From positions 27,037,987-27,101,986 of the forward strand of contig NC_132880.1 of assembly GCF_030463535.1 (NCBI RefSeq): 64,000 bases of DNA, in the 5' to 3' direction. Under the pieces are notes generated by a model, which searched no databases, was not told the origin of the DNA, and saw only the letters and a list, made by a program, of their open reading frames with translations. Of the stretch, positions 21,083 to 52,307 are shown piece after piece; the stretch's first letter is position 1; each line of letters begins with the position of its first letter. This DNA comes from Salminus brasiliensis (lineage: Eukaryota; Chordata; Actinopteri; Characiformes; Bryconidae). Both the position numbers and the translations under genes were made by a program.

Positions 21083-24000
21083 CTAGTCCCTTACATCAGA
21101 GATATTTTTTTCCATCTGTGGAGTCGGGCACCTATTCCCTAAAGCTCGCAGAAAGTAGTGTTCATGTAATCTGAGAATGCTGCTTGTTTTGTAGAAACAT
21201 TCTTGACATTCAAAGCTTTCATCTAGATCTCCATATAACTCTGACTTTGCAAAGGTGCTTGGGCCATCTAGAAATACAGTAGTTTCCACGAAATGAACTG
21301 CCTGGGTCACAGAATTCGGAATAGAGTTGTCCTCAGCTTTACTGGTTATTGCGCAGCATGTTGGCATGCGGTCATCTGGCAGAGACCGAACAGAAGTAGG
21401 TTCTGGGCCTTGCAAACCCTGAGGTAGGTGTGGTATGTCAGTCTCTGAAGAGGTCTGAGTACTTTCTGGCCTTCGTTGTGAAGGATGTCCACTTACAGGT
21501 GTGCTAATGTTTGGCAAGGCACAGGGACCGCTTGCTGGCAGTGGGTTCTCATCATCAGAGCCCAAGTTCATTGTTATTGGTGGACGTATTCTTGAGAGAC
21601 TGGGCATCACATAGAGCTTGTCTGGATGGGGGTAACTGTAAAGGCTCTTGTCATTTGGGACGGCGTCAAGATTAAGAGTAGATATTAGAGGCCTGGTAGT
21701 AGAAGGAAGTGTGTGAGCTTTCCCTCGTGACATAGACAGGGTGGGTTCATTGATACAGGCCGGAGAGACTTGGCGTCTAAAATGACACGTCTGATGCGCA
21801 TAGAGTAGATCCCCAGTCGAGAAGCTTGCCGTACATCTCTTGCACTTGTGTGGAAAGGCCAAGGGCTCTGACGGAATATCAGGGAGGGGAAGACCAAGGG
21901 AGGTACTGTGAGTTTTCAAATGTTCCAGAAAAATTTTGTTGTTTGTGAAGGACCGTTCACATGAGAGACACTGATGAGAAACCGCACCGTTGTGTAGGCG
22001 ACTGTGCTTGAGCAAGTTTCTCAAGTTACTGAAGGTCTTTGCACAAACCTCACACTGCAAGACTCTCGATGGTTTATGAACTTCACACTGGTGAGCATGC
22101 AGACCTTCTTCATGAACAAAGGTTTCAGGACAGAGAGGACAGGCCAAAGGTCTCTCCCCTGCATGGTTCAACATATGGTCTTTATAGGAGCCAAAGAAGC
22201 GGAACTGGAGGCTGCACTGTGAGCAAGAATAGCAACGGCCTTTCCCGCAGTGAATTCTTTGGTGCAACCAAAGTCTGTTCCACCTCTCAAAGGTCTGCCC
22301 ACAGTGTCCACAAACATGTCTGAAACCAGGGGCATGCGACTGCACATGGGCGCGTAAACTCCTGTATTGTTTGAAGCGCCGGCCACAGCGCGAGCACTGA
22401 AATCTCCAGAGACTTGGGGAGATTTCGGTGCACTCCAGAGAGTCATCTGAGGAGACGCAGGTTATCACAGACGGAGTGGGGGACGGGGGACCAACGTCTT
22501 GCAAAGGTGAAGCCTCCATAACCTCAGACGTTTGAAGAGTAAGGTGTCCGGTCCTTTGTGAAGGATTACCGGGAGTCTGGGAATTCTCTTTAGGCTTACC
22601 AGCATCTGTCACGGGCCAGCTTTTGCTTTCGGAAGTCGGAAGTAAAGAACCAGAGCAGCTATGGTATGAATTTCTCCGGAAAGTGGAAGCGTAGCTTTGG
22701 GCCTTGTTGTGAAAGATTTGAAAAAGCGATGCACCACAAGCCGTTTCTTCCCCACTTGACTGACAGCACACCCTACAATGCACACTAACCTCAGAATCCT
22801 TCTCGTAACTCTGCCCACAAGCAAAGCAAAGATATGGTGGTAACTTTGTGTGGGTCTGAAGGTGGAGAGTGTACTGGCACCACTTCCGATAGAGTTGTCT
22901 GCATATCCGGCATTTGAAGAAAACAGGTGTGTTCACTTGACCATCAACTCCTTGACTCACTAGAAAGCCTTCAATGTCCCCGTTGTTGTCCCCATCTAAT
23001 TCTCCTTTTATGCTGCATTGCTTGGTTACTTGATGCACTCGAAGCTCAGCAAGGTCACGAAAGGCATGGGCGCAGTTAGAACAAGAAAAAGGAGTCTCCC
23101 CGGCGTGCTCTCGGGAGTGCTTCTTCAGTGCCTTCAGTCCATTAAACCCTTTAGCGCAAACGGCACACGCGTATGGTTTAACAGGCCAGTGTGTTCTCTC
23201 ATGGATCAAGAGGCGTGAAGACTTCTCAAACTGCCTCCCACAGGTCCTACAGGACAGAGGCCCCTCGCGCTTATGCACTTTCAACCTACAAGAGTTGGGA
23301 AAGTTTTCCTCGCAGGTCTTGCAAACTAGACTGCTGTCACTTTGTACTTCGAGAGATGTGCTGGACCGTTTGCGATGGCCTTGATGCAACTCCTGGATGT
23401 GGATCTTAAAATGGGCTAGCAAGCAGTTTTTATGGGAGAATTTTTTACTGCAGCACGGACAACAAAGGGTAACCGTCTGGGTGTGGATTTTTCTGTGAGA
23501 TTTTAGGTTGGAGAGTTGAGCAAAGTTCTTGCCGCAAACTTTGCACCGGTAGGGTTTTTCGCCGGTATGAATACGCTGATGAATGGCGTATGCTGAGATA
23601 TGCCGGAAATATTGACCACAGTACTTACAAACAATACATTTCTTTGCTGATTCTTTGGACAGGGATTCCACTCGCTTGTTCTTAACATCAGCCTCCACAA
23701 TGCATGGGCCTTTGTTTAGTGTTGCTATGCAGTCTGCATTGCAATCCTGTGTAAATGCATTCACCTTCTCACTTGCAAAATTCTGGAGTGGCGCGTCCTC
23801 ACTGGCAACTTTTAGTCTAGATGAGGAGTTTTCCTTCCCTGCTTCAACACCTGTCCTTACGGCTTTCTCTAAACTTTCTTGCTTACGTTTTTTATCACAA
23901 ATCGCATCACTGGAGTAAAATTCGGTGGTATTCAGAAACGCCTCCAGAGCCAATTCAAAAGCCGATTTTCTCTCTTTTTTACCCCACCTTGCCTCACATT

Positions 24001-27000
24001 CCCTCCCCTTCACATCTCTGTCCTTCGACTCCGGAGATACGTTAGTATACAGAGCAAAGTGGACTTCTTCAACCGCTGTCCGCGGTAGCGTCTTCCTCTT
24101 ATCTGCACAATAATGTTCTGCTGAACTGATTTTGACATCGCTCAAACTGCGTTGCTCGTTAGGTGAATCAGTTTTGAGTGGACCTTCAAAGCAGTCCAAG
24201 AATTTGCCAGTTTCACTTGGCTCTTGCTGCCTTAACGCCGTCCTTTTGGACGCCTGTCTGGTGTCTGGTTCCGACATTTTCCTCTTAGTTTTTAGTTTTT
24301 TAGGTGTTTGCTTTAAACTGTGTCTGATTTGGTCACATTTTTCCTCTAGTATTTCTGCATGGCTACTCATCATCACTGTACTTGAGCAATTCTTCATAGG
24401 TTCTGGGTCTGCAACCAAAGCCTGATCGCAGATAATCACCTTGTGGTCGAGTTTTCTCCTTTTGGGAGAGACCTTTTTCTTAGACGTTTTAAGGTGGGGG
24501 CTACGCAGGGTGTGAGGAACTGACTGACAGCTGTTCATAAGGCCACAGCTACTCTTAGGCAGAGGAGTGTTGGATTTCTTTGTGCCCCTTTTTTTCTTTT
24601 TGTGCTTTCGTGGTTTCCTTGGAATTAATGAATTGGGGTCAACTGCTGCAGTATGACCACATTTTTGGAGCCTTCTGACACTGCCTAGGGTAAACCTCGA
24701 CAGTCTCCTGGAGTGCCTCACACTCAACACATATAAATTGCGTAGCTGCAATTTGGACATCTTGCCCTTCTTCTTTGTATGAGTCCGAAGACCTTGTGGC
24801 TTTGAAGTCCTGCGTTCCGCTGTTTGCGCTGCACTGGCTCCTGATCGTTTAGACTGCCTATGCTTTTTTGGTGGTTTTCCAAACAACCTTTTCCGACCAC
24901 CGTCAAAAGCATTAGAGGTAAAATGTCTACTTTCCACAGAGTCAACGGTAGCTACAGAACGGGTGAGAATTGTCTGCTCATGCTCAGGACACAGGTCTGA
25001 GGACACCGTGCCGATACTGGAATGGGTTGGCATACTGCCATCATTTTGTTTTGTGCACAGAGGTTTTCCAGAGGAGTCCACGGATACCTCAGTTTGTTCC
25101 TCTGCCTTTACTTCCTCCCTAACTAAATCTATAGGACGATAATTTTGAGAGATTTCTTGCGGATCTTGGGCAGTCATATTTTCTGACGTTTCCTGAACAA
25201 CTGATAACAGTTTGGTCAATTTCTGTTGCTTCCCTTTTCTAAAGGAACGACCAGTCCTTTTTCTCCTGATGACACAAGCTTTAATGCTCTTGAGACAATC
25301 CATTTTTTGGATTTCCACCTTAACAAGTTTGGGGGATTGGTCCTTAAGAGGCACATTTCCACAACCACTAACAGGAAATTCACCATGAGGGAATGTATCA
25401 GGTTCTAGCTTAACACTTTGATAAGACTGTGTTTTAGAGGTAGATCCTTCTTGATGCTTGAGCTTCTTTAAATAGTCTTTAGCTTTTTCTGGTTCGGTTT
25501 TAACGTCAGACACAGGTTGAAATGTATTCTGCAATTCACTGGAAGTGAATGTATTTTCGGGAGACAAGCAAGCATCATCTATTCTAGAATTCGCTGTGAT
25601 TTCGCTGTGAGGCTTTTTTACTTTCTGGTTGACTTCTTTCCCTTTCAGCCCAAATCTTTGTTCTTTCGCTGTTTTCAAAATACTCAGATCCTCCAAATCT
25701 GGTGTCTTGACTATTCCTTGAGGTACATCCGATCTATGTAAATTTGATTGCACAATAGTGGAAGCTTGTGGTCTTTGCACAGGGGTTTTCTTTAGCTTCT
25801 TTAAGTTTCTTGCCTTCTTTAGAGTATTTGAAACACTACATACATTCATTTGCACCTCGGATTTGGCTTGACTTGTTGCATTGATGCTTTTAGCATCTTT
25901 GTAGGAATACCTAGAACGTGGATTCTGGACATCTGGGGTTGACTGAACTTTTTCAAACAGAAAATCAGAAGATGAAATGCCGGTGTTTGATACAACTGAG
26001 CATTTCGGAGTACTGCTCGATGGTGGCATTGTGTTTTTTGAGTTTTTCCTGTTCTGAAATGTTTTGATGGTATTTTGTGAGCTTAGACTTTTGTCTGAGC
26101 TTGAATCTGAGCAACATGGACTGAAACTGAGATCTAATGACTTAGAAATGTCACAAGGAGGAGGCTTCTCCTCCACATTACTAGTTACATGACTGCTCGT
26201 TTTGCTTTTAGCTTTCTTCGCATAAGATTTGGCCTTTACAGACCCCTGCGCATCAGACATTGGAACCGAAGAAAGACGATCTTGGCTGACCGCAGACGGC
26301 CTGTTTCTTTTTTTGTGGCTTTCAGACTGCAAGCTTTCGGGCACAGGGTCCTTACTAACATGAACAGCGTTTTCTGTTGATATCTGATGCTTAATTCCAC
26401 TTTGCTCTTCATCTTTTTCTTCTTTCTCGGTCAAAGCAATAGCACTACATTTTTGTGCTGTGGTTCGGCTCTTAACCGCGCCAAGTAGTTGCTCCTCTGG
26501 TAGGTGGGATGCCTGTGGCGATCCACAACTTTTAACTGACTGGTCACAAGAAGTGTTCAGCATTTGGCCATTTTCTTTGTCTGGTACCAATTTCCTTTTC
26601 TTTGTTTTTCGTGTTTTTTTTCTTGTGCACTTTCTTGGGACCTCAGTAGCAGGACAAACTCCTTCATATTCAGCATTACCTTCCTTTTTTAGTGATAAGC
26701 TCTCAAGAGTAGTCTTAGAACTGTAATCACTGCTTTCTGTACTTTTGCAGGTGATCTTTTGGGATTGGCCATGCCCATTTTTGTGAGAATCAGGTTGAGG
26801 AAATTCATGAGTATTACTGTGGACTATTGTTTTCCTTGGAGATCTTTCCAGTATGTTTGACATTTGTGGTGGGTCTTCAGTAATCTGACTTGCTGAGTCC
26901 TGGAACAGAGTGTGTTCCTGAGCTATGCTGTGAGATGGCTGAAGACTACAGACATTAGCTATTTCTTCACTGTGACTAAATGAAGCTGTTTCCCTTTTGT

Positions 27001-30000
27001 TTGGCATTATTTGTTTTTTCACCTCCTCCTGAGGACTTCCAACAGCAGAGCAGACAGGGCGACGGGTTGATGTAGCTTCTTTTGCTGGTGTGCACTCAGC
27101 ATTTGATGTCATCCTGAAGGATCCATCTTGTCTAGGAGGTAGATTAGAGGCTTCACATTCAACTGCAGGCTCATTTGTATTGTCTGTTCCAAGCTGAAAG
27201 GGCTCTGTAGATTTCAGTGTCGGGGTAGGAGAGGCCACATGGCAAAGGTTATGTACAAGGTTCTTCAGCTTACTGACAGAGGTAGATGAACATACAGAGC
27301 TTGGTTCAGCAGAGGCACTGTTAAAGCTGTTGGAGAGGAAATGTTGTGAGCCACCTTTACTTGCTCGCTCAGTAATGGTTGAGCACTGTGTTTCTCCCTT
27401 TATAACCAATCCTTTGTGTGGCACACCAGCTTCCTGATTTTCTGTATTGCTAAGATTATTCTTCATTCCTGAGCCAATACGTTCATGTTGACCCTTTGGA
27501 TCAACAGCAGTGTGTACATTTGGGCTATGTTCAAAGTTTAGTCTTTGGGTCACTTGAAACTTCACATTCTGGCAAGATGCATGGAAATCATTAGGGAGTG
27601 TTGCATTATTGAATCCACAAAGCTTAGTCTGGCTGTCCACAGAGCTTCTAGAGCCAACATCTTCATAAGCATTAGCATGTTCCTTATGTGCCTGTCTCAA
27701 CAAGGGAGCAGCTGATGACAATGTGCCCTCTCTGTTCCCACTGATGTCTGATGAGGCTGAAGGAATCATAGACGTATGTTTAACTAAACTTTCAGATTGC
27801 CTTTCCATGACTGGATGTGATTCTAAAAGACCTGAAACTTCTTTCTGTTCTGTAGATACATGTGGCTCCACTGAAGAAATATCAAGGATATTGTGCCGCT
27901 TGAGTGTCCTAGAGGTAACTCTTTTGAGTACCTGGTCATCCATTGAGGAGACATCAGTCAAGGAATTCACCTCCTGGAAACGAAAAAAAGAAATACAAAC
28001 ACTACATTTGTCTTATTTTTCATGGCTTCTTTTAAAGCGATTTATATATTTTAGCAAAAAAAACTTACCATCAGGCTGACTTCCTGATTCGATCCAACAG
28101 GAGATACCTTAGTGCCATCAGATAGAACATTAACAGATGACTCTTGATTACCATTCATCTCTCCTGTCTTGGATTTTTCATGGCCATTTGGCCATTTGTG
28201 ATCTCCAGAACCAAAGTGGCCCTTCACATGTTCCATTCCTCTAGTCTCAGCATGAGGTTCTTGGTAAACCATCGGGGTTCTACGGGAGAGATCCTGTCCT
28301 AATCCATTACTCATCTCTAAAGCTTCTTTAATAACAGACATCCAGTTGGAAGAGCTGCCCTTTTCCATGTTCTGGTTCTGTTAAATAAAACACAGTCATC
28401 TTTTTTTTCCAAAGAAAATGGAGATTTAGTTTAGTTAATAGTTTAGTTAATAGTTTAGTTAATAAGAACAGCTGGACATACAGTGGTGCTTGAATGTTTG
28501 GGAAGCCTTTAGATTTTTCTAAATGTCTGCATAAATTTGGCCTAAAACTCCCCCCCTCCAACACAAGTCCTAAAAGTAGATAAGGAGAAACAAATCAAAC
28601 AAATGAGACAACATATTAGACTTATTAGGTAATTCATTAATTGAGGAAAATGATCCAATTTTGCTTTTATGTGAGTTCCAAAAGTATGTGAACCTTTAGA
28701 ATTAGCAGATCATTTGAGAGTGAAATTAGAGTGAAAGTGTTTTCAATTAATGGAATGACAATCAGGTGTGACTAGGCACCCTGTTTTATGTAAAGAAGAG
28801 GGATATGGCTGATTTTAACAACATGTTTGTGGAAGTGTATCATGGCACAAACAAAGGAGATTTTTGACGAACACAGAAGCACAGTTGTTGTTGGAGAAGG
28901 TTTCAAAACCACCTTTAAGGCATTTGGACACCACCAATCCAGTCAGATAGATTGTGTACAAATGGAGGAAATGCAAGACCATTATTACTCTTCCCAGGAA
29001 TGGGAAGCAAGGCGTGTAATAGTACGCAATGTCACAGAGGAACCCAAGGTAACTTCAAAGCACCTAAAGGACTTTGCCACACAGCCACCATGACCATAAA
29101 CACTCAAGTCATTCTACCAAAGAATAGTTAAATGGTGTTGGAATAGCCAAGTCCTGACAATCCAATACAAATGTTGTAGAAGGACCTAAAGCAAGCAGTT
29201 CATAAGGGGAAAAAAACCCACAAACATAACAGAGCTAAAGCTGTTTTGTACAGAGGGATGGGCTAAAATTCAGATGTGCAGGACTAATCAACAGTTAGAA
29301 ATGTTTCACTGCAGTTATTGCTGCACACCAGATACTGAAAGCAAAGGTTAACATACTTTTGCCACTCACAAATATGTAATACTGGATCATACCTAATATT
29401 TTTGTCTAATTTGTTTTATTTGGTTCTCCTGCTCTACTTTTAGGACTCGTGTGAAAATCTGATGAAGTTTTAGGTCAGATTTAGGCAAAAATATAGAAAA
29501 TTCTAAAGGGTTAATAAACTTTCAAGCACCAAGGAAGTCGTGATTTACCTTTTCTTGGCCCAGTATATGTGATGCTGTAGTTGATGCTGTAGTTAAATGG
29601 TCATTCACAAGATTGTATCCTTCCTTCCTTTCTCCATAATCCTCTGAATCATGATCCATGTTGGATCTCGTGGGACGATGAATGACTGGGTAACAGTGTA
29701 CTGAATCTTCAGCAGTTCCTGAAGGAATTCCTTGGCAATTAGGAGGAAAAGCCTTTGAGGCACAACAGGTGTATGATGATACATTTCCAGCAGACTGAAT
29801 GTCACTCATCATGTCTGGCTCCTGAAATGAAACAGTGTTTTAGGTTTTAAGTGAAAGATTTAAAGCCGCCTGAAGCTAAGGGTACTGAGTATTCATAAAG
29901 ACACTTCAACATACCTTCTGCTCCGATGCATGTGGCCAAATGGTGTGAGAGATGGTTTTTGATTCTTCTCCATAATTAACACAAGTGGTTTCTTCTCCAT

Positions 30001-37800: not shown

Positions 37801-38232
37801 CCCAAGGAGTCGCCTCCTTGCCTCCAGAGGTCACTGTCATCACAGCACTGCTTTTATCTCTGATCAACTGTGTTTGGAAGTATAGTTATGTGATATATTG
37901 TCTTATATAAGTCCTGTTTTTGTATTTGATGGGATGTCTTGTTTGTGTTACATTCCAGGCCATTTGCTTTTAATCCTCTCCTTTACAACATGTGGCTCAA
38001 ATCAGCTCTTGTTTCTATTCTTCCAATCTGGTAATTGAAATAATAATAAAAAAAAAAAACAGGTTGCCCTGTCAAATCTTTCATGCCTCTATGTTTCAGG
38101 AAACAAAATGCTACAGTGCACTAAAGTTAAGTTGTAGCTACACTAATGATCAGTGCACTTAAAAAGTGGAAAAATGAAACAACTATTCTTGTACTTTAGA
38201 CTTAATTGTTTTTTCAGACTTAATTATAATTC

Positions 38233-38745
38233 AAAAGCCTACACCAGACGTAACTCTACAAAAGCCTACACCAGACGTAACTCTACAAAAGCCTACACCA
38301 GACGTAACTCTACAAAAGCCTACACCAGACGTAACTCTACAAAAGCCTACACCAGACATGACTCTACAAAAGCCTACACCAGACATAACTCTACAAAAGC
38401 CTACACCAGACGTAACTCTACAAAAGCCTACACCAGACGTAACTCTACAAAAGCCTACACCAGACGTAACTCTACAAAAGCCTACACCAAACGTAACTCT
38501 ACAAAAGCCTACACCAGACGTAACTCTACAAAAGCCTACACCAGACGTAACTCTACAAAAGCCTACACCAGACGTAACTCTACAAAAGCCTACACCAGAC
38601 GTAACTCTACAAAAGCCTACACCAGACGTAACTCTACAAAAGCCTACACCAAACGTAACTCTACAAAAGCCTACACCAGACGTAACTCTACAAAAGCCTA
38701 CACCAGACGTAACTCTACAAAGGCCTACACCAGACGTAACTCTAA
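38233..38745 (+). repeat. 27-bp minisatellite, about 19 copies
   Basis: The unit is AAAAGCCTACACCAGACGTAACTCTAC, written here as AAAAGCCTACACC + AGACGTAACTCTAC. Copies are nearly identical, differing by single bases (ACGTAAC to ACATGAC, AGACG to AAACG, AAAAGG). Because 27 is a multiple of three and two frames lack stops, it leaves two long open frames (repeating KAYTRRNST or QKPTPDVTL). There is no sign of a promoter, splice sites or a conserved protein, so it is called a non-coding repeat. Confidence 0.95.
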
Positions 38746-38960
38746 CAAAAGCCTACAAAAGCCTTTACGAAACCCTAAATTTAATTTCTACAAAAGCCTA
38801 CATTTTTTTTCTACGAAGCCCTAAATTTAATTTCAACAAAAGCCTACATTTAATTTCTACAAACGCCTACATTTAATTTCTACTAAACCCTAAATTTAAT
38901 TTCTACAAAAGCCTACAATTAATTTCTACAAAAGCCTATCTTTAATTTTGTAGCAACAGC
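38746..38960 (+). repeat. degenerate tail of the minisatellite
   Basis: The AAAAGCCTAC half-unit continues but is now joined to AATTTAATTTCTAC instead of ACCAGACGTAACTCTAC, with unit lengths near 24 bp and more substitutions. This probably shows an older, diverged or alternative higher-order unit next to the homogenised array. Confidence 0.8.
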
Positions 38961-40010
38961 TAAACTTTCATTTCTACTAAATCTTTTCTAATAAACTTTT
39001 ATAACTGCGCTAAAATGGCGCAATTTTAAGGATACTTAGGTATAGTTTAAACATACTACTGTATATGTACACACTGTATACCTAAACTTAAATTACACAT
39101 TTAATGAGTATTACTACTGCATTTCTGTATTTAGTTCTTGCTGGAAGTTAAGAAATCAGTTAATGTAATTGATTGGACACATAGTGTCACACCCACCAAG
39201 TCAGATTTAAAGACATGATTTAGAGTAGAGTGATAGCGTGCAGCCGACATGAAGCCAAAATTAATAGATTACAGGTGAACACATAGGAAAAGGTAGCTTG
39301 ATGGTGTGAGTGAATGGGGGAGGGGGCATGCCTAGTATTGGTGCCAGGAGCCAATGGGAAAGTTGTTAGTTTTACTCAAATAGGTTGTGCTCCACACACA
39401 AACCCACTGTATATTGTTGACCCAGCACAGCTGACTCAGTTACTGGACTTGTTGAGAAACATCAACATAATCAAGCTGAAATGGGCCAATCACTGTCCAT
39501 TTGCAAATGGCAACCGAATAAACTTAATTAGTTATTTCAACTCAAAGATCTGGAAAAAAGGTTAAAAATACTCAACACAGTTGAGTAATATGTGGGATAT
39601 CTCCCATTTTACAGCAAACATTTGGAATTACAGTATACTTTTTAGACTTTACTAATTTTATGTGACTTTCAAAAAAAGTCTATTTCAACATGTATTTAAG
39701 AAGTACATTATATTAAATTAAACTCATTTTAACTGAAAGTATACTTCATAGTAATGTATTTATTTAAAAAATCTATATTGTATTTTTATTAAACAATTGT
39801 TTTTTTCCCTGCTAGGGGTATATACCACATGTTTGTGGCTGACATCTCTGAGGTTGAATCAGCTAAATCTAGTTTAGTGTATTATCTCTATATAGTGGAT
39901 GAAAATCACTAATAAACTATGGTATTGCATAATAGACTTGTTTCCTTTAAATAACATCTAAATAAAATTTGTCATTACACAAAACACATTTTAAAACACT
40001 GCTGTGGACA
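38961..40010. other. no gene seen
   Basis: AT-rich DNA between the minisatellite and the apoA-IV copy A 3' end. The 83-codon open frame at 39314-39565 has no recognisable motif and is not called. Confidence 0.5.
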
Positions 40011-40017
40011 ATAATTT

Positions 40018-40023
40018 TTTATT
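40018..40023 (-). terminator. apoA-IV copy A poly(A) signal
   Basis: Minus-strand AATAAA about 145 bp after the stop codon; the same hexamer in the same context lies behind copy B at 45940-45945. Confidence 0.7.
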
Positions 40024-40167
40024 TCAGTTTCTTTAAAAATACAAACTGACCAACACTGATAAATATAAAGGAACACAAGTCAAACTTCATCTGTAAATCC
40101 AGCAGATCAGCTATTATTTAAGTCCTTTGTGTAACTGGAAAATGAGAATCTCAGCAGACAAGATGTT

Positions 40168-41418
40168 TTACTGGCTGCTCTTTGCAAACGACTCCCAGAG
40201 ACTGGTCAGCTGTGCCTTCAGGTCCTCAGCATAGGGGTCCAGTTGCCTCTGCATCTCTTGGCCTTTATGCACCAGCTGGTCTTGGAAATTCTCAGCCATT
40301 GGGATCATGATCTTCTGGAAGTCCTGCATGTGCTGTTCCAGTTTCTGCTTCAGCTCCTCAGTCTGGGGCCCAAGCTGAGCCTGCATCTCCTTCACGCTCT
40401 TCTCCAGACTGGCCCTCATCTCCTCACTCTTCTGCAGCAGAGTGGCTTTCAGAGCCTCAGAGTCCATTTCAGTGTAAGGGGCCACATCTGTCTTCAGCTG
40501 TTCCACTTGCTTCTGGAGATTCAGCATCAGCTCCTGGACGTAGGGATCCAGCTGAGTCCTCACAGAGCTCAGGTCCTGCTGCAGACGCACCTTCAGCTGC
40601 TCGGCCTCCTGGGAAATCTTGGCCATCAAGTCCTGAGTCAGTGGTGTCATCTGCCCACGAATGGCCACTGCATACTGACTGATGGCATCTGCACTCTCTG
40701 AGATCCTGGCACTGAGCAGAAACAGAAAGACAGATATGGAAATGGGGCCAAGTTTTTAACTTATGCCTCACACAAATTAAGTCCATCCATAGAGCTGAAG
40801 AATCCGCTAATGCACTTAGTTCGACTACTACTAGCAAAATAGCATTAGGGTTACTGACAGCTGAGGTTGTTCATGTTATTACAGTTGATATATCACAAAT
40901 CAGTGCTTTTTTATGCAGAAAAAAATAGAAGTTAGAAAAGAAATGAGCATAAGGTCATTAGACCTGCTGTGTTCTGAATATCTATCTATGTAGATAGCTA
41001 GCTAGTGTCATAGCATGATACATACTAAGATGTGAGCGTTTATGGCTGCATTTTTAAGAACTGCACCCTCTCTGAGTGTGACATGAGAGACTTCTGTTAT
41101 TTTATCTGACACTCACTTGACTTCTTGTCCCATTTCAGACTCTCTGATCTTCTGCAGAATGTCTGCAGTCGTTAGAGTCGCCTTTGCAACGTAATCCCAG
41201 AAGGCGTCCTTCACGATCTCCATACTGGGCCTGGCCTGGTCCTGCACCATGAGGTTGGCATGGCAACCTTTGGGCATTAAAATAACAGAATTCAGGGATG
41301 GTTTATGATGATGTTATGTTTTCATACTGATCTACATTTTCTGTTCAGGTCAACAGCGAACTATAAAAATGTGCTCACCAGCAAAAGCAGCAATAGCAAG
41401 GACAACAAGGACCTTCAT
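40168..41418 (-). CDS. apoa4: apolipoprotein A-IV-like, copy A
   Basis: Secreted exchangeable apolipoprotein of lipoprotein particles, expected from gut and liver. Coding exons (minus): 41418-41379, 41267-41117, 40711-40168, preceded by a non-coding exon ending at 41611. Protein 244 aa: signal peptide MKVLVVLAIAAFAGCHA, then the typical FWDYVAKATLT...ILQKIRESEMGQEV segment, then tandem amphipathic helices often starting with proline (LDPYVQEL, VAPYTEM, LGPQTEELKQK, LDPYAEDLKAQLTSLWESF). The 40/151-bp exon pattern and phases match the neighbouring apoE and the other apoA-IV copies. It differs from copy B at scattered residues (VRTQLDPYVQELMLNLQKQ against VNSQLDPYVQELTSNLQQQ). The apoA-I/A-IV/E families are close; A-IV is preferred from the sequence and the known fish cluster. 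Confidence 0.92.
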
Positions 41419-41674
41419 GGCTGGATGTGTAAGATACCCTGAAGAGGAAAACAAATGAAACCATGAAAACATTTTTTTTTTTACATAAAATTATGTCAAA
41501 CAGTCATAAAAAATAGATAAACAGAAATATTTCAAGTATATGCTTTAAACCATATAATGTTCCTGTACTGCATATTTCTTCTTTAATAACAGAACTGTCC
41601 ACCTACTTACCTAAATTGTCTCCTGTGTCCTTCTCCCAGAATGTGAATGAGTGTCAGCAGGCATCAGGTCTCAA

Positions 41675-41774
41675 TATATACAGATTACAGAGCTCTGATG
41701 AAGGAGACAAAGTCCAAAACTCCTGCCCTGCTGTCACCACTGTGCTGTTGCTCATGCCACATCACACACTCCAA
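41675..41774 (-). promoter_or_regulatory. apoA-IV copy A promoter: TATA, HNF4-like site, distal conserved box
   Basis: Minus strand: TATATA at 41675-41680 in front of the non-coding exon; TGGACTTTGTC at 41706-41716, matching the HNF4 half of a DR1 site (CAAAGTCCA on the other strand); and TTGGAGTGTGTGATGTGGCA at 41755-41774. All three elements recur in copies B and C. Confidence 0.7.
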
Positions 41775-42009
41775 CTCAACTCAACTGGACTGACCTCTAA
41801 ATCATCAGTCTTTTATCACTGTTTAGTTCAGCAGCAAGGCCTGCTTTGAAATCAACAACTGCAGCTGCAAAATGGTTTGATTTTAATAAGAGATGTTTCT
41901 ATAGAATTTTCACAGACGTTTTCTGTAGATATCAGCATAATGGAAGTGTATTCAGTTGTATTCTTTCCTATTATATGAATAAATTAAATACCAGCAAATT
42001 CTGGAAATA

Positions 42010-42340
42010 AACGTCACACCATGATCCTAAACACACCTTAAATACACAATGGACTTCTTCAAAAGAGCCAAGCTGGCAGTTTTGCCAGTTTTCCCCTCAC
42101 AGTCCCCCGACCTAAACATCGTAGAAAATCTGTGGATAGACCTCAAAAGAGCAGTAAAGTAAGACATCCCAATAATCTCACAGAACCTAAAGAATATAAA
42201 TCTGATGGAAGTAAAAAGTTATCTTACAGAAATGTTTAGAAATGTTTGGAAATCAGGTCATTAATTACTTATTTAACTATTCACAGTATTAGATAGAATT
42301 GTGCCTGATGGGTGCCCAAACTTTTGCATGCCACTGTACC
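42010..42340 (-). mobile_element. Tc1-like transposon relic upstream of copy A
   Basis: It keeps the end of a transposase gene on the + strand: TCACAGTCCCCCGACCTAAA (the Ser-Pro-Asp-Leu-Asn motif near the last catalytic residues), ATCTGTGGATAGACCTC, and the terminal tail GTGCCCAAACTTTTGCATGCC. The frame is broken. A homologous relic sits upstream of copy B. Confidence 0.65.
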
Positions 42341-42624
42341 TATTACTTGTTATGTATGAACTTGGACACTTAAAAAAGAGAAAAACATCTGAATCAGATT
42401 CTAATCAAATTTTCACAAGAAGTCTTTTGATCATCTTAAATTAAACAAGTAAAGTATTTGTGAAGTGAGAGTAAATTCAAGGACACAGTTAACACAGGTT
42501 TTCTTAAATGACTGTTTTTATATTAAATTAATATGAAGTGTTGATGTAGAAACAAACAGCTGAGCATGACAAACATTTGATGTTAACTTTTGTAATTATA
42601 ATATTTGTGATAGAACTGTAGATG

Positions 42625-42626
<2 letters not shown>

Positions 42627-42678
<52 letters not shown>
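42627..42678. repeat. (AT)n microsatellite
   Basis: 26 uninterrupted AT units. Confidence 0.95.
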
Positions 42679-42681
<3 letters not shown>

Positions 42682-43413
42682 CTTGAAAAACTAATTAGCA
42701 GATAATTGTCTTTTTATACATGGTGCCAAATGTTGTAGACTTAACTGGCATTCATTTCATGGAGTGACTCAACGCTTTTATGAACTTGGTTCCCATTTAC
42801 ACTGAAAGTGAACAGTGTATCATGTGTTTATCTGAGACTAAAACACTATGAAATACAGGCTAAATTGCACTTATCTGGGATTCTGCCTTAAATATGATAC
42901 CTAAACTGTTTTTAGTGTAGATCCCCTTATATTAATTCTGTTCAGTAAAACTACACTGTAAAAAAGACAACTCAACATTTTACGGCAACATGAGGCAGCT
43001 CCATCGGTAGTCATTCCTAAGAAGATCTTTTTGTTTATCTAACTTAGATTCAACTTAGATTTTTGTTCAGACTGCTTAGAACTTCAGATTCAGGCAACTA
43101 CAAGATTCCTGTTTTAGCAAACAGAAAGTTTTGTGCTAAAGTTGCATTAGCATTAATCATCTGCCAATAAAATGAACAGTATGCTCAGTGGTTATGCAAA
43201 AGTGAACACTGCAGTACTTGGCCAGGATAGTCACACTCACTAGCACAATGAAAATGGAAACTTGCTCTTACAGCCTACAACACTGAGGCCACACAGTCAA
43301 CCATTACATAAAATACAACTACATTGCTAAGAGAGTGTAGCCTGTGGGGAACGACTGCATGCTGACAGTGAGTGAAATAGATGATGTCATGAGCCTTTGG
43401 GAAAGTTTAAGGG

Positions 43414-44328
43414 GACGTCAGCTCCTGGACGTAGGGATCCAGTTGGGAATTCACTGAGCTCAGGTCCTGCTGCAGACGCACCTTCAGCTGCTCGGCCTCC
43501 TGGGAAATCTTGGCCATCAAGTCCTGAGTCAGTGGTGTCATCTGCCCACGAACGGCTACTGCATACTGGCTGATGGCATCTGCACTCTCGGAGATCCTGG
43601 CACTGAGCAGAAACAGAAAGATAGACATAAATTCCCAAACATCTTTGATAAATGGCAGGTGTTTGTTAATTTACATCCCACATTGGTTGAAAACGGGGTA
43701 ATTATTCAGACATCTAACATGTTAAATTACCTTTGGAGGTAATGAGAAAGGGCATTGAAAGGGCAGGCACAAATATATCTGCTAAAAATATTTAGCTAAG
43801 ACTAGCTTTAGCCGGCAGCTGGTTGGATAAAAATATACCCTCTGCTGGTCAATTAGCTGGTAAAGCTAATAGACTAGCTAAGCAATTTGACCAGTAAGGA
43901 TAGAACCAGCCTAATCAGCCTAATCAGATTAGTAAAGTGGGCTACCATTCAGCAAGTGAATTGATGGAAACTTCCACACAGAGGTGTCAAGTAACAAAAC
44001 ACAAATACTTTGTTACTTACTTAAGTAGAAATTTTGGTTATCTATACTTGAGTACCTATATTGAAATAATTACTTTTCAGCTGACTTTTTACCTCCCTTA
44101 CATTTTCACACAATTATCTGTACCTTCCACTTCTTACATTTTCAAAACAGTCTCATTACTCCTAATTCATTTCGATTTGTTTTTATCCTGGCTTGTTATT
44201 GCTCCAAAAAACAAAACAAAAAAATCCCCTAACCAGATCAATCGCGCTATCCGGAAAGTGTAAAATAGTGTATGTAGCTTAGTATGAAGATGTCTGTGGC
44301 AGAAACTCAAGTGTAATGTCCCAACGAA
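43414..44328 (-). pseudogene. inserted fragment of apoA-IV copy B (part of exon 4 plus intron)
   Basis: Nearly identical to 46445-47359 at a constant offset of 3031; I noticed only one or two differences in more than 900 bp. It contains the 5' part of exon 4 (43602-43414, reading ARISESADAISQYAV... to the QELTS region) with its acceptor, and adjoining intron including half of a hAT-like repeat. It has no first exons, no 3' end and no poly(A). The 13-mer GAAAGTTTAAGGG flanks it on both sides (43401-43413 and 44326-44338). It cannot encode an apolipoprotein. The open frame of 73 codons continues only into flanking DNA. Confidence 0.9.
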
Positions 44329-44339
44329 AGTTTAAGGGA

Positions 44340-45725
44340 CTGCATGTGGGGGCGCTGTTCAAAGCTCCTGGTGTGCAAGACTGAGAAACCCTGTAGCATT
44401 TCTCTGTGGGCCTCACTACACCATGTGCACACATTTAATCAACCAGCCACATTGGATACCACGAAACTGCTTGCTCAGGTAACACAGAGAATCTTGTTGG
44501 CACAATATCAGGGTGGAATCTGTTAACCTGACCTGGCAAAGTAATTTAGATTTCCTGATCTCAGTGACTTTTGACACAAGCTGTGACTGCATTTGATCAA
44601 AATCACAAAATTTCTCAAATATCCAACCTTAGATAAGGGTGGTGTAATTTTTAAATAGATGCACCCCATGTGAAAACCACCCAAAGGTCCCTGCATTGCA
44701 TTTAGACATAATAATATGGGCATAATAAGGGCATAATTAAATAAATAAATAAAACAGTCCTGCTATTTTGTTTTTACCAGGATGTATTTATGATATGTTT
44801 GTTCATCTAAAAGTATTATAAAAAATAATATAATACAATTATTATTAAATGTAGGCTACTCTACATTTTTTTATTTCTGTAAAATCTCCCATGTTTCGAA
44901 AAGTGGGACAGTAAAATTTGTTCTAAAACATTCTAAAAGCACTACAAGCATAAATGTGCTAAGGGGTAGAAATTGTGCTATGAATTTTCAGAGCTTAAAT
45001 CTTCTAATGGATTATTTGAAATGTTTAAATAGAAGAGCAAATGATGTTCATAACTGGGGGTGACTGCACCTCTGTTAAAAGAGTTTTTTCTAAATAATTT
45101 AATATTTTAACTTTGTCATTCACGACAGGTTTGAATGTTTAGCTGTGCTTGCAGCTCTTCTTTTTCATAATAATGGATATTCAGTGTCTTTCTAATAAAT
45201 CCTCTCTATCACACAAAAACTCAAAATATCTCCAAAACAGGAAAAAGGTCATTTCTTTTATTATTCTGAGTCATTTTGGAACATTTCTATTGGTCCTTTA
45301 CATTATTGTCATTCATCATGGAATTTTGACATACTGTGAAGATCAAGTGCCAGATTTACATTAGGTCAAAACGTGAAAAATGCCAGGAGGCCTATGAGGG
45401 TTTTGCATGACAGCAATACAATGCATCAAAACTATTACAGTGCTTCCTTACCTGATTTTGTAAGAGCAAAAATACTGAAAGTGGTCAATTTACTGAGCAT
45501 GAGATCGCACATTTAGCCTTCAGTGTTTCTGAGACAACCTGGCTTTAAGAAAACTGATATGTGTACCATTTTCTCTGTTGGTTTGATTAGGACTAATCAT
45601 TAGTTAGAGTGGTGAACTTAATGCATTGGCTTAAGAGGTCCATGTTAAGGCTCATTCACTCTACAGTATAATGTAATCCTGGTCAGACTGTACAATTTAG
45701 AAGAATCCCCAATCACATTTACCAT
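44340..45725. other. intergenic, nothing recognised
   Basis: AT-rich spacer between the inserted fragment and duplication unit B. Short open frames have no recognisable motifs. Confidence 0.5.
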
Positions 45726-46089
45726 CCCTTAATCTTTACAAGACAGGCTCCTTGCCTCCAGAGGTCACTGTCACCACAGTGCTGTTTTCCCCTGTGATCA
45801 ACTGTTTACTTTTAACCCTGTCCTTTACAATATGTGACTCAAATCAGCTCTTGTTTTTGTTCTTCAGCTCTGTTATTTCAAATTAAAACTAAAAAGATTC
45901 ACCGAAATGATTGAAAACACTGCTGTGAACAATACATTTTTTATTTCAGTTTCTTTACAAATACAAACTGACCAACACTGATAAATATAAAGGAACACAA
46001 GTCAAACTTCATCTGTAAATCCAGCAGATCAGCTATTATTTAAGTCCTTTGTGTAACTGGAAAATGAGAATCTCAGCAGACAAGATGTT

Positions 46090-48263
46090 TTACTGGCTGC
46101 TCTTTGCAAACGACTCCCAGAGACTGGTCAGCTGGGCCTTCAGGTCCTCAGCATAGGGGTCCAGTTGCCTCTGCATCTCTTGGCCTTTATGCACCAGCTG
46201 GTCTTGGAAATTCTCAGCCATTGGGATCATGGTCTTCTGGAAGTCCTGCAGATGCTGTTCCAGTTTCTGCTTCAGCTCCTCAGTCTGGGGCCCAAGCTGG
46301 GCCGGCAGCTCCTTCATGCTCTTCTCCAGGCTGGCCCTCATCTCCTCACTCTTCTGCAGCAGAGTGGCTTTCAGAGCCTCGGAGTCCATTTCAGTGTAAG
46401 GGGCCACATCCTTCTTCAGCTGCTCCACTTGCTGCTGGAGATTAGACGTCAGCTCCTGGACGTAGGGATCCAGTTGGGAATTCACTGAGCTCAGGTCCTG
46501 CTGCAGACGCACCTTCAGCTGCTCGGCCTCCTGGGAAATCTTGGCCATCAAGTCCTGAGTCAGTGGTGTCATCTGCCCACGAACGGCTACTGCATACTGG
46601 CTGATGGCATCTGCACTCTCGGAGATCCTGGCACTGAGCAGAAACAGAAAGATAGACATAAATTCCCAAACATCTTTGATAAATGGCAGGTGTTTGTTAA
46701 TTTACATCCCACATTGGTTGAAAACGGGGTAATTATTCAGACATCTAACACGTTAAATTACCTTTGGAGGTAATGAGAAAGGGCATTGAAAGGGCAGGCA
46801 CAAATATATCTGCTAAAAATATTTAGCTAAGACTAGCTTTAGCCGGCAGCTGGTTGGATAAAAATATACCCTCTGCTGGTCAATTAGCTGGTAAAGCTAA
46901 TAGACTAGCTAAGCAATTTGACCAGTAAGGATAGAACCAGCCTAATCAGCCTAATCAGATTAGTAAAGTGGGCTACCATTCAGCAAGTGAATTGATGGAA
47001 ACTTCCACACAGAGGTGTCAAGTAACAAAACACAAATACTTTGTTACTTACTTAAGTAGAAATTTTGGTTATCTATACTTGAGTACCTATATTGAAATAA
47101 TTACTTTTCAGCTGACTTTTTACCTCCCTTACATTTTCACACAATTATCTGTACCTTCCACTTCTTACATTTTCAAAACAGTCTCATTACTCCTAATTCA
47201 TTTCGATTTGTTTTTATCCTGGCTTGTTATTGCTCCAAAAAACAAAACAAAAAAATCCCCTAACCAGATCAATCGCGCTATCCGGAAAGTGTAAAATAGT
47301 GTATGTAGCTTAGTATGAAGATGTCTGTGGCAGAAACTCAAGTGTAATGTCCCAACGAAGCTCCACATTTACCTTCCAATAAAGGTTATTGATCACATGC
47401 CGCTGAAGTTTGTCTTTTTGCACCATTAGAATACTCATAGGCAACTACTCATCATATTTCCTGCTCCATGAAACACAAATTAATTCTCAGTAGTTCATGA
47501 CTAGTTACAGATGCTCCTGTAATATATCTGATATTACTAAAATGCATTTGTTTTTCAATGGGCAGATCTGCAGCTGTGGCATGGCCTAAGCTTTTGGCAT
47601 TTGTTTTCTTACATTACTTTTACTCTTATACTTTAAGTTGTTAAAAGCAGTGCTTTTACACATTTACTTGAGTAAAAAGCTTAAGTTGATCCTTCAACTT
47701 CTATTGAAGTCTTTTTAAACCCTAGTATCTACACTTCTACCTGAGTAATGAATGTAAATACTTTTGACACCTTTGGCTACTGACAGCTCATCATAACTCA
47801 GTGTGGAAAAGTGTTTAGTTAGAAAATACATGACCTTCAGGCACTAGACCTGCCATATTTTAAATATGACTGAGTGAGCTGACTGAGCAATAGGCAAGAT
47901 CTAATCAAGTCTGAGCAGAAGACCCACATGATGTTCACCTCTGTTATTTTATCTGACACTCACTTGACTTCTTGTCCCATTTCAGACTCTCTGATCTTCT
48001 GCAGAATGTCTTCAGTCGTTAGAGTTGCCTTTGCAACGTAATCCCAGAAGGCGTCCTTCACAATCTCCATACTGGGCTTGGCCTGGTTCGGCCACATCGG
48101 GTTGGCATGGCAACCTTTGGGCATTAAAATAACAGAATTCAGGGATGGTTTATGATGAATATGTTTTAACACTGATCTACATTTTCTGTTCAGATCAACA
48201 GCAAACAATAGAAATGTGCTCACCAGCAAAAGCAGCAATGGCAAGGACAACAAGGACCCTCAT
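46090..48263 (-). CDS. apoa4: apolipoprotein A-IV-like, copy B
   Basis: Coding exons (minus): 48263-48224, 48114-47964, 46633-46090, with a non-coding exon ending at 48461. Exon lengths 40/151/544 are identical to copy A, giving 244 aa. Signal peptide MRVLVVLAIAAFAGCHA, then NPMWPNQAKPSMEIVKDAFWDYV and the same helical repeat array ending in LTSLWESFAKSSQ. The main difference from copy A, besides point changes, is a longer last intron (46634-47963) carrying a hAT-like repeat. It is the source of the fragment at 43.4 kb. All reading frames are intact, so the gene is presumably functional. Confidence 0.92.
47010..47775. mobile_element. hAT-like non-autonomous element in the last intron of copy B
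   Basis: Left end CAGAGGTGTCAAG and right end TTTGACACCTTTG are imperfect inverted repeats. The interior shows the AC-TTAAGTA / TACTTGAGTA motifs of a common fish repeat. An 8-bp target duplication could not be identified. No transposase. Its left half was copied along into the fragment at 43.4-44.3 kb. Confidence 0.6.
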
Positions 48264-48522
48264 GGCTGGATGTGTAAGATACCCTGAAGTGGAAAACAAA
48301 TGGTCAGCAACAACACTGGTTATGTCCACATATCTTGTGTCAGAATGTCAAAATAAATGCACAAATAGAAATGGTCCAGAATTATTTAAAACACAAGCTT
48401 GTTATATTAACTTACACTGAAATGTAAGAATGTTTTTAACAGAACTGTCCACTTACTTACCTAAATTGTCTTGTGAGTCCTTCTCCCAGAATGTGAATGA
48501 GTGTCAGCAGGCATTAGGTCTC

Positions 48523-48624
48523 TATATATACAGATTACAGAGCTTTGATGAAGGAGACAAAGTCCAAAACTCCTGCCCTGCTGTCACCACTGTGCTGTTG
48601 CTCATGCCACATCACACACTCCAA
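48523..48624 (-). promoter_or_regulatory. apoA-IV copy B promoter
   Basis: TATATATA at about 48523-48530, TGGACTTTGTC (HNF4-like) at 48556-48566, and the distal box TTGGAGTGTGTGATGTGGCA at 48605-48624, all on the minus strand with the same spacing as in copy A. Confidence 0.7.
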
Positions 48625-49124
48625 CTCAACTTAACTGGACTGAACTCTAAATCATCAGTCTTTTATCACTGTTTAGTTCAGCAGCAAGGCCTGCTTTGAA
48701 ATCAACAACTGCAGCTGCAAAATGGTTTGATTTTAATAAGAGATGTTTCTATAGAATCTTTATATTATATAGATAGTTTCTATAGATATCAGTATAATGA
48801 AGGTTTATTAGATGAAGTTTTCCCTGGTAAAAACAATTGTAGACCATTTGAACAAGCCTGATACATTTTTGGATGCAATGAGCAAAGGCATGTTGACAGA
48901 CCAAAGGGTGCAACATTTCATTATAAGACAATAACATCTTTCCAACTGTTGAGCACTGTTTGGATTAATCAAGCTTTGGGGGTTGTGTTGCAGCTAGTGG
49001 CACTGGTACCGGTAGAGAAACAATAGATTTAATTAAATACCACCAATTCAGGAAGCAAACATTACATCAAATGTAAAAAAAAAAGAAAAAAAAAATCTGA
49101 ACATGAAACAAGGATGGCTTCTAC

Positions 49125-49460
49125 TATAGGATACTGGTCCTAAACACACTGTAAAATCCACAATAGCCCACTAGGCACAAGCTAGAGGTTTTGCTATCCC
49201 CTCACAGTCCTCCAATCTTAACATCATCTTAAAAATGTGGATAGTCCTTAAAAGAGCAGGGTATACAAAACTGCCCAAGAATTTCACAGAACTGGACATC
49301 TTTTGCAAGGAAGAATATAAAACTGTAAAAGATGGAAATGCAAAAGTAACCTTACTTAAAGTATTAAAGAAATGTGTTGCTATAACTTTAAGCTTAGCTG
49401 TTTACAGTAACCAAGGTTTTCATCAGGGGTGCTTAAACTTGTACCCCTCAGCTTAACTAA
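49125..49460 (-). mobile_element. Tc1-like transposon relic upstream of copy B
   Basis: Homologous to the relic at 42010-42340 (shared CCTAAACACAC, CCCCTCACAGTCC, AAAGAGCAG blocks in order). It retains a little more of the transposase end (AAGAATTTCACAGAACTGGA, TTTTGCAAGGAAGAATA). Non-functional. Confidence 0.6.
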
Positions 49461-49469
49461 ATCTACAGA

Positions 49470-50870
49470 GATGAACCGGGATACTCTAAATCAGTGTGAA
49501 GTGAAGGCAAACTGAACTCACATTCTAGACAAATCTGATTTACACTATTAGTTAAAAGTCTCCTGATAATCTACTGAATTATAATTATTGTATTGATATC
49601 ACTGCTGTCCAACGACAACCATGTTTCTCCAATTTTGTCAGTTTTTTGTTTTCTCCATTGTTTGAACCCTGTAGCTGCTTCTGTACACTGTGTAAATAAT
49701 TCTGGATGAACTGACCAATAGAAATGCTCTAAATTACTGGGAATAAACTTTTATTTTACATTGAATTCCATTCAAGGATGTGTAGTTTTGATGTAGAAAC
49801 AGCATCTAAACATGGCAAACAGTCAATGTTAAAACTACTAAATTATACTAAATTATAATATTTGAGATTTGTCTCTCATACATGGCATGTTGTACACTCA
49901 AATGGAATGACTTTTGACACTGTTATGAATGTGATTCCTATTTACACTGAAAGCACAGTTTATGTGTTCATCTTTTACACCAAAACACATACAGTATATA
50001 CCATATTTATAAATATATAATTTATGTGTAGTACTGTATAAATATACAAACCCCTCATTCAAATTCACCATAAAATTACAATTCACATGACAGACTTTGG
50101 TTACATTTGGTCAAAGCTTATTCCCCTCCTGGATGATGTATAACTTGGTTATCACATGAAACCCTGCATTCCAGTGAACTAAGCAATCTGTGCACTGAAC
50201 TCACTGATAAGCCTACAATTAGCATACAAAATGTAATGAATGACCTTAGCTCTTCTTTATCTTTGCATGTCACTTAATGAAACAATGGTAGAACTGGCCT
50301 GTGTTCTTATATTGATCCAGTGGTTTGCTCACTTATTAATGACATTAGATTAAAGAATAAACCCTGATGATCAATGGTAGGATCTTTTCTATTCAGGGAT
50401 CTGAATTGTCATGTCAAACCCTTGAACTGTGGCAACCTGGTCCAGTATGTAGGTTCACACCACATAGCATACATATTAGCATCATAAGAGTTAGCCCAAA
50501 TAAATAATGTGTCCATTTTACAGACTTAGAGTTGGTTTCTTAACTCTCCCTGGACAACAATGTCCTTGCCACGGAAAAAAAACAACAACAACCATTAAAG
50601 TTGACTGTTGACTCCGTCTTTGGTTTACTCCATGTACTTAAATGTTGTAAATATCCCTTTTAACTGAAAAAAAAACTAATAATACTAAGTAAGAAATATG
50701 TATAAAATATAATGTAAGGTTTAATTAAATCTAATATCATACTTAGCTCTTGTTCACCTTAAATTCGGTCTAGAAACGGAAGGTATGTGGACAATCTGAA
50801 CTGATACTGTATCATCAGGTATGCTTACAGGTATTTGAACAAATGTGTTGACGTATCTCTCCCATCTGAT
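49470..50870. other. spacer between divergent apoA-IV copies B and C
   Basis: No gene recognised. Left part belongs to duplication unit B; the rest is AT-rich. It must contain distal control DNA of the two head-to-head genes if any exists. Confidence 0.5.
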
Positions 50871-50884
50871 TCAGTTTAGCTGAG

Positions 50885-50994
50885 TTGGAGAGTGTGATGT
50901 GGCACAATTGATGGCACTGGGAGTGATGTCAGCAGACGGGAGATGAGTTTTGGACTTTGTCTTCTTTAACACAGCTCTCTGGTGCATATATATA
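50885..50994 (+). promoter_or_regulatory. apoA-IV copy C promoter
   Basis: TTGGAGAGTGTGATGTGGCA at 50885-50904, TGGACTTTGTC (HNF4-like) at 50951-50961, and TATATATA at 50987-50994. The first exon (about 51018-51060) is non-coding. Confidence 0.75.
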
Positions 50995-51178
50995 GAGCAC
51001 TGATCCCTGCTCAATTCACACTCACTCCGAGAGATACAAGGCAAAGGAAACAACTGAGAGGTAAGAAACTGGTTAACTACTAACAATAAACATCTGGAAC
51101 AACAGCAGAGAAACAGCGAAACCATGCCTAACCATGCCTTTTCACTTTTGCTTTGCAGGATTCCTAAGATATACAGAC

Positions 51179-52307
51179 ATGAAGGTCCTTGTAGTTCTCG
51201 CTGTTGTTGCTTTTGCTGGTGAGTGCTTTTCACTTTTGATCATTGAGTTGATGAAAATCATTACAGAAGAAACAACACAGTGACAATAATTCTGGTTTTT
51301 CCTGTCAAAAGGTTCCCACGCCAACGTGATATGGCAGGACCAAGCCAGGCCCAGTATGGAGACTGTAAAGAACGCCTTCTGGGATTACGTTGCAAAGGCG
51401 ACTCAAACAACTGAAGACATTCTGCAGAAGATCAGAGAGTCTGAAATGGGACAGGAAGTCAAGTGAGTTTCAGACAATGATTCGCTGATTTCTGACTGAT
51501 TGACCTTGTGTTCATCTGTCAGTCTGTATTGGAGAATGGCGATCAGTAAACCTATACTTTTAGACAAATGTACTTTGCAGTGAAGGTGTGAATAATGAGC
51601 AGTGAAATTTCAGCTGGAAGGGTAGTAGGGAACTGTAGGATTTAGCAAGCAGAACAGAAGATGTAATTGGGTTGAGCACATCATCAGAGCCTTCGACTGT
51701 GGAACTGTTTACTGAGAAGTTATTAAAGATACAGATATTGATACAATATTTCTTCTTTCTGCTCAGTGCCAAGATCTCAGAGAGTGCCGACGCCATCGGC
51801 CAGTATGCTGTGGTTCTTCGTGGGCAGGTGACACCTCTGACTCAGGAGACCATGACCAGGTTTTTCCAGGAGGCCGAGCAGTTGAAGGTGCGTCTGCAGC
51901 AGGACCTGAGCTCTGTGAAGTCCCAGGTGGACCCCTACATGCAGGAGCTAATGTCCACTGTCCAGAAGCAGGTGGAGCAGCTGAAGACAGATGTGGCCCC
52001 TTACACTGAAATGGACTCCGAGGCTCTGAAAGCCACTCTGCTGCAGAAGAGTGAGGAGATGAGGGCCAGCCTGGAGAAGAGCGTGAAGGAGATGCAGGCT
52101 CAGCTGGGACCCCAGGCCGAGGAGCTGAAGCAGAAACTGGAACAGCACATGCAGGACTTCCAGAAGACCATGATCCCAATGGCTGAGAACTTCCAAGACA
52201 AGCTGACCCAGAATGCTGAAGAGATGAAGAGGCAGTTGGACCCCTATGCCGAGGACCTGAAGGCCCAGCTCACCGCTCTCTGGGAGTCCTTTGCGAAGAG
52301 TCAGTAA
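51179..52307 (+). CDS. apoa4: apolipoprotein A-IV-like, copy C (inverted)
   Basis: Coding exons: 51179-51218, 51312-51462, 51767-52307, giving 243 aa. Signal peptide MKVLVVLAVVAFAGSHA; the usual Cys after the signal-peptide glycine in copies A and B is Ser here. The FWDYVAKATQTTEDILQKIRESEMGQEV segment and helical repeats ending LTALWESFAKSQ follow. The terminal exon is 541 bp, one codon shorter than in A and B. Orientation is opposite to the other apolipoprotein genes, with promoters of B and C facing away from each other. It is more diverged than A and B are from each other, so it is the older paralogue. The non-coding first exon ends at 51060; the 5' UTR resumes at 51159. Confidence 0.94.

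Follow-up and report, generated by a model that had tools for sequence, protein, structure and literature searches.

How did an unspliced piece of an apolipoprotein gene come to lie, almost unaltered and framed by a short direct repeat, between that gene and its neighbouring duplicate? This question is raised by one locus in a 64-kb stretch of genomic DNA, referred to here as the window, in whose coordinates all positions are given (Table 1). We first establish the extent and direction of the copying, then examine the junctions, and finally weigh the mechanisms that could have produced the insert.

Extent and direction of the copying

Base-by-base alignment of 43414-44328 with 46445-47359, at an offset of exactly 3031, gave 914 identical columns of 915 (blastn: 99.891% over 915), the highest identity among the self-matches listed (20 of the 23 in the window). 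At the only mismatch the copy carries a T (43720) and the source a C in CpG context (46751). Beyond the block, identity at the same offset drops to chance level on the left (9/34, 43380-43413) as well as on the right (6/32, 44329-44360). An earlier note on this DNA had described a near-perfect copy whose similarity stops abruptly on both sides, and the alignment bears out both points. Within the window, the inserted copy has one identifiable donor, 46445-47359, which has the same orientation and is separated from it by 2116 bp edge to edge (44328 to 46445).

The donor is part of one of three apolipoprotein genes, here called A, B and C, which we take to be apoA-IV genes of a teleost; Pfam itself says only "Apolipoprotein A1/A4/E domain". 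The copy is placed between genes A and B and shares their orientation. These two genes are diverged duplicates (95.5% over 749 bp and 87.4% over 881 bp by self-alignment), far more diverged than copy and source, in keeping with the earlier claim that the insert is not part of the tandem duplication. The copied exon piece matches gene A at 199 of 214 positions, as does the source exon. Gene C lies on the opposite strand, and its last exon is 88.6% like that of gene A and 87.6% like that of gene B.

The block at 43414-44328 is the insertion and that at 46445-47359 its ancestral source, because the source exon continues past 46445 as it does in genes A and C, because the transposon-like element of the source has both its ends while the copied sequence breaks off within it, at 47359, and because the flanking repeat sits at the copy and not at the source.

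Table 1 Features of the insertion, its source and the surrounding genes.
Feature	Position	Strand	Evidence or remark
Inserted copy, 915 bp (912 bp if the right-end GAA is given to the target)	43414..44328	.	914/915 against 46445-47359
Source block, exon part and intron part of apolipoprotein gene B	46445..47359	gene on -	alignment, self-match, Pfam
Single difference between copy and source	43720..43720	.	alignment; T against C of the CpG at 46751
Left copy of 13-bp direct repeat (10 bp unambiguous: AGTTTAAGGG)	43401..43413	.	exact match with 44326-44338, unique pair in window
Right copy of 13-bp direct repeat, GAA common with insert end	44326..44338	.	exact match
5' part of last coding exon in copy, 189 bp	43414..43602	-	translation; putative exon start, placed by AG acceptor
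Intron part of copy, about 726 bp, intact 3' splice acceptor	43603..44328	-	putative boundary at CTGTTTCTGCTCAG/TGCC
First 350 bp of hAT-like element in copy, one terminal inverted repeat only	43979..44328	.	copied block ends inside element
hAT-like element in gene B intron, both ends	47010..47775	.	terminal inverted repeats CAGAGGTGTCAA (47010-47021) and TTGACACCTTTG (47764-47775), inverted repeat 92% of 12
Apolipoprotein gene A	about 39990-41952	-	self-alignment; Pfam PF01442, last coding exon E 6.2e-40
Apolipoprotein gene B	about 45911-48809	-	self-alignment; Pfam PF01442, last coding exon E 6.1e-40
Apolipoprotein gene C	about 50872-52307	+	self-alignment; Pfam PF01442, last coding exon E 2.4e-41

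The copy comprises the beginning of the last coding exon and the adjoining part of the preceding intron, and an A tract is found at neither end, as the earlier note had it. The frame of the copied exon is open up to the junction and then meets a TAA stop within the target repeat, its translation ending in ...PYVQELTSP*. The Pfam apolipoprotein match belongs to the source exon. The splice acceptor is identical in the copy, gene B and gene A, and nearly so in gene C. The element within which the copied block ends, at 47010-47775, presumably belongs to the hAT family; on inspection, no flanking 8-bp target repeat was seen. Between the blocks that gene A also has (46660-47936), the intron of gene B exceeds that of gene A by about 0.9 kb and contains, beside the element, a stretch with short internal inverted repeats. 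The copy is a truncated piece of exon and intron and is unlikely to have a function.

Several other features of the window were recorded. The A-B (41970-43176) and B-C (49066-50281) intergenic stretches are homologous over about 1.2 kb, despite the inversion of gene C relative to gene B (local alignment score 170, against 50 for the reverse strand and 28.5-50.3 for ten shuffles). The best-kept part (42092-42154 and 49197-49259, 81%) is, by its appearance, presumably a Tc1/mariner remnant. The B-C stretch was considered as a paralogous empty site and rejected, the alignment stopping at 43176, about 225 bp before 43401. Downstream of gene A lies a minisatellite (38232-38757) whose 27-bp unit is present in 19.4 copies (97% matches); a diverged array with units of 23/69 bp comes next (38766-38948). 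A minus-strand open frame at 21083-28012 encodes 2309 aa with C2H2 zinc fingers (PF00096, E 1e-23).

The flanking repeat and the junctions

The 13-mer GAAAGTTTAAGGG occurs at 43401-43413 and at 44326-44338, directly abutting both ends of the block, and neither strand of the 64-kb window has a further occurrence. Its first three letters on the right, GAA at 44326-44328, are at the same time the end of the copied block, where the source reads CCAACGAA/GCTCC (the slash marking the end of the block). As these three letters may be counted with the block or with the target, the target duplication measures at least 10 and at most 13 bp. Both the presence of the 13-mer at the copy rather than at the source and the sharing of the last GAA had been pointed out in the earlier note, and the source sequence at 47359 agrees. 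The junctions read GGG/GACG on the left and CGAA/AGTT on the right, with a microhomology of 3 nt (GAA) at the right junction and none at the left, and neither end of the copy has a poly(A) or poly(T) tract reaching 5 bp.

Exact matches at one fixed spacing are rare in the window, with rates of 1.8e-5 per position for 10-mers and 8.2e-6 for 13-mers (means over 50 spacings, every tenth value from 700 to 1190, with tandem arrays left unmasked), the uniform expectations being 9.5e-7 and 1.5e-8. A direct repeat abutting both ends of the block is therefore not due to chance.

Guidance of strand invasion by similarity between the target and the flanks of the source was tried as an explanation and rejected, since the best local scores in the four comparisons (20, 23, 22 and 20) were no better than those of shuffled sequences, being reached by 84, 27, 43 and 94 of 200 shuffles, respectively. 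A stretch of the source at 47284-47306, picked out post hoc from the third comparison, agrees at 17 of 23 positions with the target repeat and the letters that follow it on the right. By local alignment this likeness is not unusual, its score being reached by 43 of 200 shuffles, though among 69 blocks of 915 bp just three contain a likeness of 17/23 or better, one of them (22/23) presumably through the target site itself. Because it lies 53 bp from the junction, the likeness does not explain the latter, and it is possibly a chance match. Hairpins at the breakpoints were not unusual (z-scores of 0.89 for the target, -0.68 for the left and -0.16 for the right source end); at the site there was no Rfam match at gathering thresholds, and in the window no tRNA.

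Age of the copy

One difference in 915 positions corresponds to a Poisson 95% interval of 0.003-0.61%. Divergence in this range is within the ordinary polymorphism of many fishes. A T in the copy facing the C of a CpG in the source is the change expected from decay of methylated DNA, and the substitution, judged in this way, probably ran from C to T in the copy. The 13-mer is also unchanged, which likewise speaks for youth. The earlier note held that the insertion must be very recent; the single difference argues in that direction, and the copy is likely, rather than certain, to be young, on the assumption of no gene conversion, which could have reset the clock of copy/source identity.

Mechanism of the insertion

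Four properties narrow the choice of mechanism: the retained intron, the lack of poly(A), the repeat of 10-13 bp, and the microhomology of 3 nt on the right with none on the left. Taken together, they suggest that the insert is probably a repair-mediated duplication, produced when a break staggered by 10-13 nt was repaired from a template. The ancestral empty allele would have read ...CCTTTGGGAAAGTTTAAGGGACTGCATG..., with the 13-mer present once. A staggered break of 10-13 nt would have opened in it between genes A and B, and on its right-hand side the minus strand, whose 3' tip is TTC, may have paired with a GAA inside the intron of gene B. Extension of the primed end by about 912 nt would have run through half of the transposon-like element and the intron into the exon, after which the new strand would have come off its template and been joined to the left-hand side with no microhomology involved, and fill-in of both single-stranded ends would have duplicated 10-13 nt of the target. 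We infer here the use of DNA as template, the order of the steps and the enzymes (synthesis-dependent strand annealing or polymerase theta). The microhomology of 3 nt is weak evidence for repair-mediated duplication and, against this reading, a duplication of 10-13 nt fits LINE endonucleases as well.

The proposal in the earlier note of a templated or excised fragment taken up by a staggered break thus finds broad support, given the kept intron, the lack of poly(A), the repeat and a published class of such events. Its exclusion of a normal retropseudogene also stands, as a processed (spliced) copy would not have kept about 726 bp of intron. A cut-and-paste DNA transposon was rejected on inspection, as the insert, which runs from GACGTCAGC... 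to ...CCCAACGAA, lacks terminal inverted repeats, and so was a transduction, in which the right breakpoint would be a transposon end, as 47359 falls inside the hAT-like element.

The strongest rival to staggered-break repair is serial template switching at a replication fork (FoSTeS/MMBIR), which we nevertheless consider unlikely. The polymerase would have switched from the target to the source after GGG, copied the latter and then resumed on the target 10-13 nt short of where it had left off, and the flanking repeat would be re-copied target rather than a completed overhang. The final structure would be identical to the product of staggered-break repair, and the return junction does carry 3-nt microhomology; the departure junction, however, has no clean microhomology, a step back of 10-13 nt is more naturally a stagger, and the insert contains neither further jumps nor filler. 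Templated insertions of 50 bp-1 kbp in BRCA1-deficient tumours have been assigned a provisional MMBIR model (PMC10482687), but the duplicated target in the tumours described there measures 1-300 kbp, compared with 10-13 bp at the present locus.

Less probable still is a tailless retrocopy, made by a LINE endonuclease and reverse transcriptase on an unspliced gene B transcript or on an antisense RNA, in either case without poly(A). A retained intron is compatible with a pre-mRNA template, and a repeat of 10-13 bp suits copies made by LINEs, exceeding the at least 5 bp expected of a LINE retrocopy or a class 1 insertion (see below). The poly(A) tract following a polyadenylation signal that is also expected of these is absent from both ends, as is any simple 3' repeat, and on inspection neither nick position resembles the L1-type TTTT/A, the bottom strand reading CTTTC/CC (13-bp reading) or ACT/TTC (10-bp reading) and the top strand AAGGG/AC, although fish LINEs of other clades may differ. 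Moreover, use of the 3-nt microhomology as a priming site needs an antisense RNA ending inside the transposon-like element; otherwise, priming without microhomology is needed in addition to a non-L1 nick site. Copies of non-coding RNAs, usually 3'-truncated, are known of which 22 of 25 lack a poly(A) tail, and the L1 target-site duplication is reported to peak at 14-16 bp (PMC2912911). The donor here is only 2.1 kb away, and in the cases inspected by Pace et al. poly(A/T) accompanied 0 of 39 proximal and 17 of 29 distant insertions (PMC2671141), though a tailless copy escapes that test. The wider proposition, that LINE-driven tailless copying primed by 3 nt at a non-L1 nick is an RNA route scattering intron-bearing gene pieces without poly(A) in fish, is very unlikely.

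The insert could also have been a double-stranded fragment excised from the sister or homologous chromosome, for example by a SPO11 double-cut, and ligated into a second break, but we give this little credence. A SPO11 cut leaves a short overhang of 2 nt, so that a single cut fails to account for the 10-13 nt duplicated at the target. The length of 915 bp lies within the range of 15-967 bp reported for ectopic inserts in Atm-/- mouse spermatocytes, yet most of those inserts are much shorter (median 95 bp) and, as described, accompany deletions (PMC12918824). Finally, an assembly artefact is most improbable: the analysis covered a single assembled sequence, in which the copy differs very little from a block close by, but a perfect target repeat of 10-13 bp at the far end is hardly to be expected of an artefact.

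Comparison with described insertions

Repair-mediated duplication by capture of proximal chromosomal DNA is a class of events already described in vertebrates, zebrafish included, and is not new, a point that the earlier note had missed (Pace et al. 2009, PLoS Genet 5:e1000469; PMC2671141). As reported there, 824 proximal cases (donor within 5 kb) were found in human and 80 were counted in zebrafish; the 39 inspected proximal cases were free of poly(A/T), microhomology ranged over 2-9 nt, and six of the 39 had a target-site duplication, in the range of 4-21 nt. Five of the 39 combined microhomology with a target-site duplication (two with filler), and one more had filler, a deletion and a target-site duplication. 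The present insert shares with this class a single donor, as far as the window shows, at less than 5 kb (the class requires more than 50 bp, and the gap here is 2116 bp), the lack of poly(A/T), breakpoint features in the form of the GAA microhomology and the 10-13 bp repeat, both of sizes within the published range, and the presence of exons and splice sites among the copied sequences. It fits the minority of that class (6/39) with target-site duplication. At 915 bp it is longer than the longest proximal human case given, 619 bp, a length that is descriptive of the class and not defining. In a further difference, the acceptors in that study were by design interrupted transposons.

Human templated sequence insertion polymorphisms (PMC5110952) are likewise templated, with the donor left intact. 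According to that account, class 1 is marked by a target repeat, typically with poly(A) and TTTT/A, and class 2 by microhomology and no target repeat. The present insert has the target repeat of class 1 and the microhomology and lack of poly(A) of class 2, and so belongs to neither class as defined; it is also local, in contrast to the reported inserts from distant loci. A natural strain-specific insert of truncated MuERV-L in the mouse, with 10-bp target repeats, has been ascribed to a double-strand break event and not to integrase (PMC4516963). It resembles our case in the truncation of both ends, the microhomology and the target repeat, but it is a retroviral fragment with 27 bp of imperfect microhomology, compared with 3 nt and a local gene piece here. 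In mouse ES cells, short duplications were reported to arise preferentially at breaks with 3' protruding ends (PMC8355091). Such staggered-break tandem duplications have the same proposed origin as the 10-13 bp repeat, and 3' protruding ends are the geometry needed at our locus; their duplicated bases are adjacent, however, whereas an insert of 0.9 kb lies between them here.

Significance of the locus

This single insert does not by itself change views of the mechanism. As an example it is unusually clear and probably young: 4 kb of sequence contain the donor, the acceptor, the two junctions and the target repeat, and the empty allele may therefore still segregate. By repair, as we read it, a piece of an exon was moved together with its splice acceptor, and read-through transcripts might in principle make use of this intact acceptor, which now lies downstream of gene B.
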